This document shows positions 46,994-54,597 of a stretch of 64,000 bases of DNA, piece after piece; the stretch's first letter is position 1, and each line of letters begins with the position of its first letter. The notes beneath the pieces were generated by a model. The model was given only the letters and a program-made list of their open reading frames with translations. It was not told where the DNA came from and did no database searches. The position numbers and the translations under genes are program-made. The DNA comes from Anaerolineales bacterium (GTDB taxonomy: Bacteria; Chloroflexota; Anaerolineae; Anaerolineales; UBA11579). The stretch is taken from assembly GCA_021463845.1 (NCBI GenBank), contig JAJTXV010000001.1, forward strand, positions 186,001-250,000, read 5' to 3'.

Positions 46994-49900
46994 TTACAGC
47001 AGCGCTTTGGCGCGGTTGTAGCAGTCCAGCGCTTCGGTGAGCTCGTTGTTGCGCATGTAGGCGTCACCCAGGGTTTGCCACACCGCCACCTGGCGCGGGA
47101 AGCGGCGCGACGCGGCACGCAGGTCGGCAATCACATCGTCGAGGCGGATGCGGCGGCGCAGGAAGTAGCTGTAGGCTTCGGCGGCGTCGTTGATGTTGCC
47201 GTAGCTGAGCGCCTGGCGAGCGCCCGCCAGGCGGTCTTCGACTTCTTCGGGCGAGAGGCCGCGGCTGCGCTTGCGGGCCGCCTGCTTGGGCTTGGCCGCC
47301 GGGCTGGCTTCGGCGTAGGCTGGTTCGGCTACCGGCTGGGCGACGGGCTCGGGTGCAGGCGGGCTGCTGACGGGCTCAACGTCTTCTGGCTCGGCAGCGT
47401 CTGCGTCAGCTTCATCGTCCGGCTCCCCAGCGCCATAGGTGTCCTCGTCAGCGTCGAGATCTTCTTCGGCCAACGAGGCGTATTCGGTTTCGGCCAGCTC
47501 GGCTTCGGGTTCGGGCTCGGCTGCCGGCTCGTCGCGCCGCTGCTCGGCGGCCGCGGGCTGGCTAACGCTGCCGGAGAAGGTGATCGTCTCGTATTCCACT
47601 TCTTCGTCAGCTTCGGCTTCAATAGTTTCTTCCGGCTCAACAGCCGCTGGCGACTCTGCCGGCGCGTCGGGCAGCTGGCTGGCGGGCACCCAGGTGGGCT
47701 CGATGGCAGGCGAGGGTGCCTCGGTCTCACTGGGCTCCTGGCCGAGCCATTCGGCGCGGTCATCCGCGGCTTCGGGCTCATTGGCTTGCGCAGGCGCGGG
47801 CGGAAGGCTGCCCGTGCCGCCATTGACTTCCTGCTGGCTGAGTTGGCGCAGCCAATCCGGCACGTCTTGCGAATGGGCGCTGGGCTGGTGCGGTGCGACA
47901 GGCTGGCTGGCGGCCTGGTCCTGCTCCTGGCTGAGTTGGCTGAGCCACTGAGGGATGTCGTTGCTTTCTGGCTGGGCTTGAGGTGCAGGCTCGGGGTCGG
48001 CAGCGGGTTGCGCATCGTCTTGCGGGCGCAGCTCGCTGAGCCAGTCCGGCGCATCGCTGAGTTGGCGCGGGGCGATCGGTTCGCTGGGCGCAGCCGCGCC
48101 TTCCAGCGAACCGGTGAACTGGCGCAGCCAGCCGGGGGTGGTGTCGTCTGCGGCCGGCTCGGCGGGCAGCTCATCTTCGTCAGGCTGGCTGAAGGGCGAG
48201 TCGGCTTCCAGCCCGCTGAGCGTTTCGGACTCAGGAGTCATTTCAGGTTCCGGGTCGGGTTCGGGATCAGTGGCAGCATCCACAGGGTCAGCCGCGGCGG
48301 CCAGCTCGTCAAGCCAGCTCAGATTCTCGCTCAGCGTAGCGGGTGCGGCCTCAGCCGCCGGGTTGCTGCCGGCTTCTTCGGCGCGCAGCCACTCAGGCTT
48401 GGAGGTGCGGCGCTGCTCGGGCTCGGTGAGCAATTCGTCTTCGGCCGCGCCGCGGCGGGCGGCCAGACCTTCCAGCCAGTTGAGCGTGTCTTGCTCATCA
48501 TCACTGGCGCTGGCCGGGGCTTGCTCAGGTTCAACCGCGGCCGGCTCATCCAAGCCTGGCTGCGCATCCGCGGCGGGTAAGTCATCAGTGGACAGGCCCA
48601 ACGCTTCAAAGCGCTGCGTGCTGTCGGCATCGGCGGCCAACGGTTCATCCGCCTGGGCGTCGTCGGGGTCATCCTGCATGCCGGAGCTGGCCTGCAGATC
48701 ATCCAGCCAGTTGGCGGCCGGCTCAGTGGGCCGTTTGGCAGGCTCGGCGGGTACGGCTTCATCCGCCGGTTCCGCTTCGGGGGCTGCGTCTGCAGGCGGG
48801 TCAATGAATGCAGGCGAATCAGTGAAAGCGCTTACCGCAGGTCGGGTGGGCTGGGTATGCTCAAGCTCATTTTCGTTAAGTTCGGCCAGCCACTGCGGCA
48901 CTTCGGGCTCAGTGGCGGGGGCGGCAGGTTCTTCGCCTGGGGATCCTTCCTCGCCGTCGCTGAAGGCTGAGTCCAGCCAGCTGAGTTCGCCGGTCGGCAG
49001 CCAACCGGTGGGCTTGCCGCCAGGGTCGCTGGCAACCTGTGGCGGCGCGGGCGGGGCAATCGGAGCGCTGGGCAGCTCGGCCTCAGACTCGTCTTCCGGC
49101 TCCAGATTCGGCGGGCCGGTGGGGCTGAAGCCAGCCTGGGCAAACTCTTCGGTCCAGCGTTTGCCGGGCGGCTGCGCCGGCGGCAGGTCTGCGGCGTCCG
49201 GCGCTCCGTTGCCGGGGCGCAGTTCGCGCAGCCAGTCGGGGATCTCGTCTGGCTGCAGCGCGCCGGTCTTGAAGGGCTGGTCGTCTGCGGTGGTTTCGCC
49301 GGGCAGCTCATCCATGAAGGCGCTGCCGGCTTCGGGCTCGAGACCTTCCAGCGTACTGAGCACTGAACCTTCGGCTTCAGGATCAGCCTCGCCCGCAGTG
49401 GATAGGTTGTCAACTGAAAGCCAGTCGGGCAGGTCTTCTTTTTCGAAATCAGCTTCGGCGCCGGAGGGGGCACCCAGCAGCATGGGGCGGTCAAGCTCCA
49501 GCGCGTCGATAGTCACGCTGTCGGAGGGTACCTGGGCAACGTCTTTGAGCGTGCTGACCTGGGCGGCGTAGGGGTCGAGCTCTTCTACGCGTTCCCAATA
49601 GGGGTTGGCTTCAACATCCTGCTGCGTGCTGCGCAGAATATCCACCATCACACGGTTGGCGTACAGACAGTACGGCAGCTTCTGGATGATCTGGCTGCAC
49701 ACCTCGCTGGCTTCGGCGTGCTGGTTGTTCTTGAAATACATCTCGGCCAGCAAGACTTGCAGGTCGGGGCGTTGGGGATCTTCGGCCAGGGCATTGCGCA
49801 GTTCGCCGATCGCCTGGTTGTACAGATCGCCGTGAGAGTACATCCGGGCCAGCGCGCCGCGGGTCAGGCGCACCTTGGGCGGCTCATAGCCTTCGCGCAG

Positions 49901-50257
49901 GCCGTATAGACGGCGCACTTCGCCCTGAACGGCTTTGTTGGAGGGTTGCGACTCAAAGGCGCGTTCCATATGCCAGATGGAGGCATCCAAGTGGCCTTCG
50001 TCCTCACGGATGATGCTCATGCCGATATTGGCGACGAAGTCATCCGGAATCGAGGAAAGCACGCGTTGGAACAGGTCACTGGCCTCGCTGTGGCGCTTGC
50101 TCTCCAGGTAGGCCTTGCCCATCAGGCGGTAGGTGTCTATGTTCTTGGGGAAGGTTTTGAGCACATGGCGGCAATGAGCCAGGGCGTCTTCGACCTGGTT
50201 TGAATCGATGAGCTGCTCGATTCCTTGTAAATAGTCGCGTAAATTAGTGGCCGCCAT
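46994..50257 (-). CDS. TPR-repeat protein with long acidic low-complexity linker carrying repeated WL motifs
   Basis: N-terminal TPRs (NQVEDALAHCRHVLKTFPKNIDTYRLMGKAYLESKRHSEASDLFQRVL), C-terminal TPR (WQTLGDAYMRNNELTEALDCYNRAKALL); start at ATG 50257. Confidence 0.85.
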   Translation of the reverse strand: MAATNLRDYLQGIEQLIDSNQVEDALAHCRHVLKTFPKNIDTYRLMGKAYLESKRHSEASDLFQRVLSSIPDDFVANIGMSIIREDEGHLDASIWHMERAFESQPSNKAVQGEVRRLYGLREGYEPPKVRLTRGALARMYSHGDLYNQAIGELRNALAEDPQRPDLQVLLAEMYFKNNQHAEASEVCSQIIQKLPYCLYANRVMVDILRSTQQDVEANPYWERVEELDPYAAQVSTLKDVAQVPSDSVTIDALELDRPMLLGAPSGAEADFEKEDLPDWLSVDNLSTAGEADPEAEGSVLSTLEGLEPEAGSAFMDELPGETTADDQPFKTGALQPDEIPDWLRELRPGNGAPDAADLPPAQPPGKRWTEEFAQAGFSPTGPPNLEPEDESEAELPSAPIAPPAPPQVASDPGGKPTGWLPTGELSWLDSAFSDGEEGSPGEEPAAPATEPEVPQWLAELNENELEHTQPTRPAVSAFTDSPAFIDPPADAAPEAEPADEAVPAEPAKRPTEPAANWLDDLQASSGMQDDPDDAQADEPLAADADSTQRFEALGLSTDDLPAADAQPGLDEPAAVEPEQAPASASDDEQDTLNWLEGLAARRGAAEDELLTEPEQRRTSKPEWLRAEEAGSNPAAEAAPATLSENLSWLDELAAAADPVDAATDPEPDPEPEMTPESETLSGLEADSPFSQPDEDELPAEPAADDTTPGWLRQFTGSLEGAAAPSEPIAPRQLSDAPDWLSELRPQDDAQPAADPEPAPQAQPESNDIPQWLSQLSQEQDQAASQPVAPHQPSAHSQDVPDWLRQLSQQEVNGGTGSLPPAPAQANEPEAADDRAEWLGQEPSETEAPSPAIEPTWVPASQLPDAPAESPAAVEPEETIEAEADEEVEYETITFSGSVSQPAAAEQRRDEPAAEPEPEAELAETEYASLAEEDLDADEDTYGAGEPDDEADADAAEPEDVEPVSSPPAPEPVAQPVAEPAYAEASPAAKPKQAARKRSRGLSPEEVEDRLAGARQALSYGNINDAAEAYSYFLRRRIRLDDVIADLRAASRRFPRQVAVWQTLGDAYMRNNELTEALDCYNRAKALL

Positions 50258-52245: not shown

Positions 52246-54597
52246 TTAGCGGCGGGCAGCAGCCTTCTTGGGCTTGGCGCCGATGGAGCCGGTGCTCTTG
52301 CTGGACAGGATCGACCAGCCCAGCAGGGCGACCATGACGGCGGCGGCAGCCCATTCACCAGGGCCGAGCCGTTCGATCTGCACCACCACCGGGGCGATGA
52401 TGACCGAGACCAGGTTGACCACCTTGATCATGGGGTTGAGGGCCGGGCCCGCAGTGTCCTTCAGCGGGTCACCTACGGTGTCACCGACCACGCTGGCCTT
52501 GTGGCGCTCAGAGCCCTTGCCCAGGTTCTTCTTGGGGGTCTTGGGCTCGTCTTCGATCAGCTTCTTGGCATTGTCCCAGGCGCCACCGGCGTTGTTCATG
52601 AACACCGCCAGCAGCTGGCCGGAGAGGATGATGCCGGCCAGGAAACCGCCGAGCGCATTCACGCCCAGCAGCAGGCCAACCAGGATGGGGGTCACAACGG
52701 CCAACACGGCCAGGGGCACCAGCTCTTTCTGAGCGGCGCCGGTGGAGATGTTGACAGCCTGCTTGTAGTCAGGCTTGACCTTGCCCTTGAGCACGCCACG
52801 GGCGAACTGGCGGCGGCATTCTTCCACGATCAAGGCGGCAGCACGGCTGACGGCCTGAATGGCGTAGGACGAGAACAGCCAGGGCAGCGCGCCACCGATG
52901 AGCATACCCACGAACACCTGGGGCACATCGATGCGGATACCGATGGACTGGATCTGCTGGGCCAGCGGCACGCCAGCGGCGGCCTGGGCACGGCTTACAT
53001 CGACGAGGTAGGAGCCGAACAGGGCCACGGCGGCGATCACGGCGGAGCCGATGGCGACGCCCTTGGTGATGGCCTTGGTGGTGTTGCCCACCGCGTCGAG
53101 GTCAGCCATGATGCGCTGAGCCTTCTTGGTGGTGGGGTCAGACTTGCCGCTCCACGACATCTCGCCGATGCCGTTGGCGTTGTCAGCGATGGGGCCAAAG
53201 GAGTCCATGGCCACGTTGTTGCCGGTCAGGGTTAGCATGCCGATACCGGTCATGGCGACGCCGTAGAGGATGTAGGTGATGGTCTCGGCGGGAGTGGTGC
53301 CGATGCCGCCGAAGAGCAGGATGGACGAGAAGATGGTGGCGGCGATGACGATGGCAGCCCACACGGAGGACTCGTAGCCGACGGACAGACCCTGAAGGAT
53401 CAGGGTGGCCGGGCCGGTGTCAGCCGCTTTCTTGATCTCATCCACCGGCTTCTGGTGCGTGCCGGTGAAGTACTCGGTCATGCGGTCGATCAGGATGGCG
53501 AGCAACACGCCGATCCCGACGGCCGCGGGGGTGAGCCACCAGGCGCCGGGCAGGCCGGCATCCTTCAGGTAGAAGAAGGCGGCGGCGAAGAACAGCACCA
53601 CGGAGATGACCGCGGAGGACAGGAAGCCACTGAAGATGGCGCTCATGGCCTTGGCGGCGTTGCCTTCCTTGCCAGCCTTGACGGCATAGGTGCCGATGAT
53701 GGAAGACAGCACACCCACACCGCGCACGATCAGCGGGTAGATGATCCACTCAATGTGGCCGGTCAGGGCGTGCAGTGCCACACCCAGGATCAGGCCGGAG
53801 ACGATGGTGACCTCGTAGGACTCGAAGATGTCTGCGGCCATACCGGCGCAGTCACCCACATTGTCACCCACCAGGTCAGCCACCACGGCGGGATTGCGCG
53901 GATCGTCTTCGGGGATGTCGTTCTCCACCTTGCCGACCAGGTCAGCGCCGACGTCAGCGGCCTTGGTGAAGATGCCGCCGCCGACGCGCATGAACAGCGC
54001 CAGCAGGGTGCCACCGAAGCCGAAGCCCAGCAGGGCGTCGGGCGCGGCGATGCCGAAGTAGATGAAGAGCACGGTGCCGCCGAGCAGGCCGAGGCCGTCG
54101 GTCAGCATACCGGTGATGGTGCCGGCGCGGTAGGCGATCTTGAGCGCGCCACCGAAGGAGTTGCGCGCCTCAGAGGCTACGCGCACATTGGCGTGAACCG
54201 CCATGCGCATACCGATCTGGCCCACCAACAGGGAGAACACGGCGCCGAGCACAAAGCCCACGGCGCGGCCCACACCGATGATGGTGCGAACCTCTTCCGG
54301 GGTGTTGCTGTGGAAGCGCTCAATGGCCTCAGGGGTGGGGGGCACAATGGCCACCGAGAGGTACATGGCCACGGTGAGGATGACGATGAGGGGCACAATG
54401 GTGCGCAGCTGGCGACCCAGGTAGGCATTGGCGCCGTCACGGATGGCGGTCCAGACCTCCTGCATCTTGGGGGTGCCGGCGTCAGCCGCCATCACCTCTT
54501 TGCGCAGCCACAGCGCATAGGCCAGGCCGAGGATGGCAATGCCAAACACGGCCCAGATGGCTGTGACTTCAAAACTGGTCAACCCTAATTCATACAT
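52246..54597 (-). CDS. hppA: Membrane-bound ion-translocating pyrophosphatase
   Basis: GGGIFTKAADVGADLVGKVENDIPEDDPRNPAVVADLVGDNVGDCAGMAADIFESY; DAVGNTTKAITKG; GDTVGDPLKDTAGPALNPMIK. Confidence 0.96.
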   Translation of the reverse strand: MYELGLTSFEVTAIWAVFGIAILGLAYALWLRKEVMAADAGTPKMQEVWTAIRDGANAYLGRQLRTIVPLIVILTVAMYLSVAIVPPTPEAIERFHSNTPEEVRTIIGVGRAVGFVLGAVFSLLVGQIGMRMAVHANVRVASEARNSFGGALKIAYRAGTITGMLTDGLGLLGGTVLFIYFGIAAPDALLGFGFGGTLLALFMRVGGGIFTKAADVGADLVGKVENDIPEDDPRNPAVVADLVGDNVGDCAGMAADIFESYEVTIVSGLILGVALHALTGHIEWIIYPLIVRGVGVLSSIIGTYAVKAGKEGNAAKAMSAIFSGFLSSAVISVVLFFAAAFFYLKDAGLPGAWWLTPAAVGIGVLLAILIDRMTEYFTGTHQKPVDEIKKAADTGPATLILQGLSVGYESSVWAAIVIAATIFSSILLFGGIGTTPAETITYILYGVAMTGIGMLTLTGNNVAMDSFGPIADNANGIGEMSWSGKSDPTTKKAQRIMADLDAVGNTTKAITKGVAIGSAVIAAVALFGSYLVDVSRAQAAAGVPLAQQIQSIGIRIDVPQVFVGMLIGGALPWLFSSYAIQAVSRAAALIVEECRRQFARGVLKGKVKPDYKQAVNISTGAAQKELVPLAVLAVVTPILVGLLLGVNALGGFLAGIILSGQLLAVFMNNAGGAWDNAKKLIEDEPKTPKKNLGKGSERHKASVVGDTVGDPLKDTAGPALNPMIKVVNLVSVIIAPVVVQIERLGPGEWAAAAVMVALLGWSILSSKSTGSIGAKPKKAAARR

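Follow-up and report, generated by a model that had tools for sequence, protein, structure and literature searches.

Arrays of a short Trp-Leu motif in a TPR scaffold protein and a membrane protein of Chloroflexota point to a possible shared docking system

The window examined in the present study is the whole 64,000-nucleotide stretch of contig JAJTXV010000001.1 (positions 186,001 to 250,000) taken from the 2.3 Mb assembly of an Anaerolineales bacterium (GCA_021463845.1), and it raises the question of why the long linker of one of its proteins carries so many Trp-Leu (WL) pairs and what might read them. This protein, hereafter the scaffold, combines a disordered region with TPR domains according to Pfam and AF2, and its linker is rich in Ala, Pro, Glu and Asp. 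TPR_19 matched with 76.5 bits against a curated Pfam cut-off of 25, and several further TPR models also scored above their cut-offs; such generic TPR matches were the only ones obtained from Pfam, NCBIfam and PHROGs. The scaffold gene is followed on its own strand by ndk (46926-46471), and on its other side an ABC transporter gene runs divergently from 50366. Of the 22 stretches examined, 14 have ndk in the vicinity of the scaffold gene and 14 have a gene for a membrane-bound H+-pyrophosphatase (52246-54597) there, and nothing in these neighbourhoods pointed to a reader of the motif.

The first-pass annotation had counted 14 WL pairs against two other tryptophans in the linker, and this count holds. 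Fourteen of the 16 linker tryptophans precede a leucine, all 14 of the peptides originally listed were found, with Trp codons running from 49423 down to 47749, and the remaining two residues are W368 (RWTEEF) and W856 (TWVPAS). Shuffling the linker 20,000 times produced a mean of 1.24 WL pairs and a maximum of seven, compared with the 14 observed. Leucine follows tryptophan in 40 of 231 instances (17%) in the other window genes examined, a background against which 14 of 16 has a binomial probability of about 2e-9. The array is therefore far above what composition predicts, and the chance frequency that the annotation had named as a ground for refutation does not apply. The pattern it proposed (x-P/x-(D/E/Q/G/N/S)-W-L-x-x-L) is followed loosely in this protein, where 8/14 sites have Pro at -2 and 9/14 have Leu/Phe at +4, and becomes sharp across homologues. 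The spacing, said to be regular, is not, as gaps between successive WL pairs vary from 8 to 77 residues. Tandem DNA repetition was considered as the origin of the array and rejected, since a single trivial repeat (2 x 18 bases) was all that the gene contained and the codons of the motifs are varied.

Table 1 Features of the scaffold gene and related loci. Positions are those of the window unless a locus or genome handle is given; residue numbers refer to the scaffold protein
Feature	Position	Strand	Evidence or conservation
TPR-linker-TPR scaffold gene, 1087 aa	46997..50257	minus	ORF, Met codon at 50257; homologues found
N-terminal TPR head, residues 1-235	49553..50257	minus	TPR_19 and other TPR Pfam models
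Disordered acidic linker, residues about 240-995	47273..49540	minus	Composition; AF2 pLDDT about 30
C-terminal TPR-like domain, residues about 1000-1087	46997..47260	minus	TPR_2/TPR_14 matches; AF2 pLDDT 80-93
WL motif W279 PDWLSVD	49409..49429	minus	W kept in 5/5 congeners
WL motif W342 PDWLREL	49220..49240	minus	W kept in 5/5 congeners
WL motif W419 TGWLPTG	48989..49009	minus	W kept in 5/5 congeners
WL motif W427 LSWLDSA	48965..48985	minus	W kept in 5/5 congeners
WL motif W456 PQWLAEL	48878..48898	minus	W kept in 5/5 congeners
WL motif W517 ANWLDDL	48695..48715	minus	W kept in 5/5 congeners
WL motif W594 LNWLEGL	48464..48484	minus	W kept in 5/5 congeners
Longer recurring module around W594, residues 586-611, NWLEGLAARRGAAEDELLT	48425..48502	minus	Predicted helix 586-610; repeated in homologues
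WL motif W623 PEWLRAE	48377..48397	minus	W kept in 5/5 congeners
WL motif W648 LSWLDEL	48302..48322	minus	W kept in 5/5 congeners
WL motif W710 PGWLRQF	48116..48136	minus	W kept in 5/5 congeners
WL motif W739 PDWLSEL	48029..48049	minus	W kept in 5/5 congeners
WL motif W771 PQWLSQL	47933..47953	minus	W kept in 4/5 congeners
WL motif W802 PDWLRQL	47840..47860	minus	W kept in 4/5 congeners
WL motif W837 AEWLGQE, poorly conserved	47735..47755	minus	W kept in 2/5 congeners, WL in 0/5
PxWL membrane protein, 516 aa	L010:8129-9679 (G000:C12:127128-128678)		Genome pattern scan
PFSL[ED]xL scaffold homologues	L173-L178, L180		G049, G164, G068, G328, G196, G310, G180

Comparison of six congeneric proteins indicates that the WL motifs are conserved islands inside a fast-evolving linker. 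Columns -2 to +5 around the linker tryptophans have a mean identity to the query of 0.80, versus 0.50 elsewhere in the linker, and none of 5000 random placements in a permutation matched the conservation of the motif columns. All but one of the WL tryptophans (13/14) are kept in at least four of the five congeners, the exception being W837. An AF2 model of the full scaffold, based on a three-sequence alignment, placed the linker at a pLDDT of about 30, although many WL sites form short helices and one longer helix spans residues 586-610, in a block reaching a pLDDT of 76. This helix is part of the longer module around W594 (NWLEGLAARRGAAEDELLT), further copies of which occur in homologues, L030, L039 and L044 among them.

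Scaffold homologues were found in 36 of the 41 genomes searched, including the source genome, and WL motifs recur across the order, so that the loss of conserved motifs in homologues, named at the outset as evidence against an array, was not seen within the order. A set of 30 scaffold linkers, some of them incomplete where they stop at the edge of the fetched stretch, contains 342 WL pairs compared with 40 expected from composition. The linker profile comprises Asp or Glu at -5 and -4, Ile, Leu or Val at -3, Pro at -2 (62%) and Asp at -1 (54%), followed by Leu or Met at +1 and Leu, Ile or Met at +4. An aromatic residue at +4 is rare, which sets the motif apart from the WxxxF/Y type of PEX5.

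A scan of the source genome for P[DEQH]WL revealed a second cluster, in a gene on a contig other than that of the scaffold. The encoded membrane protein consists of an N-terminal tail with four PxWL motifs, a transmembrane helix, a domain of about 230 residues and a second transmembrane helix. Most of its relatives outside the genus have an additional N-terminal zinc ribbon and longer disordered tails, and, going by the charge around the transmembrane helices, the tail is probably on the cytoplasmic side. The gene belongs to an operon encoding DUF6754, a small membrane protein, the PxWL protein, another membrane protein, a MutL/GlmL-like ATPase and a KOW-domain protein; the core gene order from DUF6754-like to MutL-like looks identical in G033 and G164. 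The membrane protein had no match in Pfam, NCBIfam or PHROGs, and its neighbours in the operon include DUF6754 and the MutL/GlmL relative, the latter scoring below NCBIfam cut-offs. No published description of the operon was found in the open-access literature.

The tails of 29 such membrane proteins hold 180 WL pairs versus 21 expected, with Pro at -2 in 81%, Asp at -1 in 61% and Leu, Ile or Met at +4 in 64%, a profile nearly the same as that of the linkers. Both families share [DE][DE][ILV]-P-D-W-[LM]-x-x-[LIM], and the occurrence of the same core motif in unrelated families is the surprising part of the result. Clustered P[DE]WL sites were confined to the scaffold and membrane-protein genes in the five genomes scanned, the scan beyond the source genome using [DE]xP[DE]WL in G033, G005, G310 and G222. 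The beginning of G222:C81 seemed to encode a third carrier, but this was rejected because the sequence is the C-terminal end of a TPR scaffold. Within the source genome, P[DEQH]WL sites (100 of 102 listed) were followed up in 40 stretches, which yielded single matches only, mostly in globular or non-coding-looking frames. An enoyl-CoA hydratase-like protein (L100, G000:C1 near 384345; L228, G005) has a conserved acidic C-terminal DDAPEWLGG tail; it is probably unrelated to the arrays, the match being either coincidental or the mark of a carrier with one motif. The linkers and tails also share another short motif, TGxL, with an enrichment of about 13-fold in the former and about 7- to 9-fold in the latter; examples in the window linker are at residues 331-334 (TGAL) and 815-818 (TGSL).

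Of 301 Chloroflexota genomes, 96 have a detectable TPR head, 70 have the membrane domain and 56 have both, compared with about 22 expected if the two were independent and shared ancestry is left uncorrected. The scaffold is a member of a widespread Chloroflexota family for which a limited open-access search found no description; PDWL, DUF6754 and Chloroflexi TPR linkers likewise returned no relevant description in the open-access literature, although subscription papers may contain one. Linkers of Anaerolineae and of G048 contain 7-32 W[LMVI] motifs, and the tabulated membrane proteins that keep a tail contain 3 to 70, mostly PxWL, G054 excepted. In Anaerolineae and relatives there is a weak correlation between the motif counts of the two families (rho 0.38, P 0.06, uncorrected for ancestry), and strict co-variation between them was therefore discarded. 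G206 combines a divergent scaffold homologue lacking a WL array with a membrane tail (L262) that has one WL and a repeated HRPQ(R/Q)KWDD.

A different motif is found in a distant group that presumably represents the class Chloroflexia (f33, f43, f68, f71 and f86). Their scaffolds have the same head-linker-C-terminal TPR layout and also carry an array of Pro-capped short motifs, but the linkers have almost no W[LMVI] and instead contain 10-32 motifs of the PFS[LF] type, PFSL[ED]xL (e.g. LQPFSLEELGLS), in place of PDWL. Matches to the PFS[LF]-type pattern were clustered solely at the scaffold locus in G196 and G180, with 3/9 located there in G310. The excess over composition, the conservation at orthologous positions, the occurrence across the order and the helices predicted at many of the sites give good support to the initial proposal that the disordered linker displays a multivalent docking array; this proposal had missed both the second carrier family and the motif replacement in Chloroflexia, and its idea of a condensate gained no support.

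These observations are best explained by a receptor for a Pro-capped turn, because the motif is precise, conserved as islands and common to two unrelated proteins. We put at about even chances that the soluble WL scaffold and the membrane protein are joined via one shared receptor in a PEX5-like multivalent short-motif system. We infer that the motifs bind, that both arrays have a common reader, that the TPR domains hold clients and that the tail lies on the cytoplasmic side. The scaffold would then be a cytosolic multivalent platform, in which two folded TPR ends acting as putative client binders flank a linker with about 14 copies of P-D-W-L-x-x-L, each forming a Pro-capped amphipathic helical turn. 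A single receptor domain would read both the linker array and the membrane tail array, contacting the Trp, Leu(+1) and Leu(+4) that face it on the turn, and many weak contacts of this kind could tether the scaffold and its TPR-bound clients to the membrane complex, or set them in competition for it.

The design of carboxysome scaffolds such as CsoS2, in which a long disordered protein carries many copies of a short docking motif, resembles that of the present scaffold, although the motif and flanking domains differ and no shell genes were seen beside the scaffold in the window stretch examined. In its working principle the nearest analogue may be PEX5, a soluble TPR protein whose disordered region has several acidic Trp motifs, partly pre-forming helix, and whose partner PEX14 is membrane-anchored (PMC8086558). 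The present scaffold is similarly soluble, joins TPRs to a disordered acidic region with Trp motifs and appears alongside a membrane-anchored protein, a likeness of layout in which homology was compared as far as generic TPR matches. It would not be a PEX5-type system, as motif and partner differ: the PEX5 motifs are WxxxF/Y rather than P-D-W-L-x-x-L, PEX5 has one C-terminal TPR domain whereas the scaffold has TPRs on both sides of its array, and PEX14 is itself the reader whereas the Chloroflexota membrane protein displays the motif and has no known reader domain. The TPR groove of kinesin light chain binds disordered peptides in which Trp adjoins an acidic residue (PMC6224480). Such Trp-acidic pairs in disordered sequence occur here too, but in the present case the array is inside the TPR protein itself and the membrane protein has up to about 70 copies.

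The kinesin precedent leads to the most specific alternative, which we regard as unlikely, that the N-terminal TPR head is itself the receptor and reads its own linker, other scaffold copies and the membrane tail, producing a self-assembling, membrane-recruited meshwork. TPR grooves can hold Trp-acidic peptides on their inner concave surface (PMC6224480), the head is the best-conserved part of the scaffold family in the homologue comparison, and scaffold and membrane protein co-occur. Membrane proteins that are tail-less or nearly so in G056, G074 and G114, where no scaffold was detected, also favour a reading head. G166 has a similarly reduced membrane protein and a weak, linker-less scaffold homologue; G214 and G137 were dropped from this group because their contigs end inside the gene. 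Against the head as reader, the membrane tails of G198, G229, G312 and G330 keep 2-4 W[LMVI] motifs in genomes with no detectable scaffold. An AF2 model of residues 1-350, covering the head and the start of the linker, left both PDWL motifs unordered at a pLDDT of about 27-36, a weak argument given its three-sequence alignment and lack of interface output.

It is rather improbable, in our judgement, that look-alike motifs serve two different readers, the tail motif being tied to its own operon and that of the linker to some other protein. The membrane tails show a 9.5-fold enrichment of Arg at +5, which is not a leading residue in the linkers, the gene neighbourhoods of the two proteins differ, and in Chloroflexia only the tail keeps WL. 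A core motif that is nearly identical, and that clusters solely in these two proteins among the genomes scanned, speaks against separate readers, as does the absence of WL from both proteins in G054. The least probable reading has the Trp/Leu patches acting as non-specific aromatic stickers or as anchors at the membrane interface, driving condensation or loose contact with the bilayer with no dedicated protein reader; this would match the sticker-spacer layout expected of spaced aromatics in an acidic disordered linker and the membrane contact of some PEX5 WxxxF helices (PMC8086558), but fits less well because Pro, Asp and Leu positions are selected along with Trp, Pro at -2, Asp at -1, Leu at +1 and Leu/Ile/Met at +4 being enriched although a sticker needs none of them, and because acidic flanks would be unfavourable for contact with anionic lipids.

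The shared receptor is thus the preferred reading, with the restriction that it cannot hold everywhere, since the Chloroflexia linker has lost WL for PFSL and the tail keeps WL. The weak correlation of motif counts, the separate locations of the two genes in the source genome and the four genomes with WL in the tail but no detected scaffold also count against it. More tentatively, we suggest a Chloroflexota-specific docking code, in which one reader would recognise PDWLxxL arrays on both the TPR scaffold and the zinc-ribbon membrane protein to form a membrane-linked assembly, and the Chloroflexia scaffold would have switched to PFSL[ED]xL with a reader of its own. Arrays of short linear motifs that have their own readers are familiar from eukaryotes; to our knowledge they have seldom been documented in bacteria. 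The occurrence of one motif in two unrelated proteins, one of which can contain about 70 copies, offers a bait for finding the reader, and the shared motif would give a first functional lead on the conserved DUF6754/MutL-like membrane operon.
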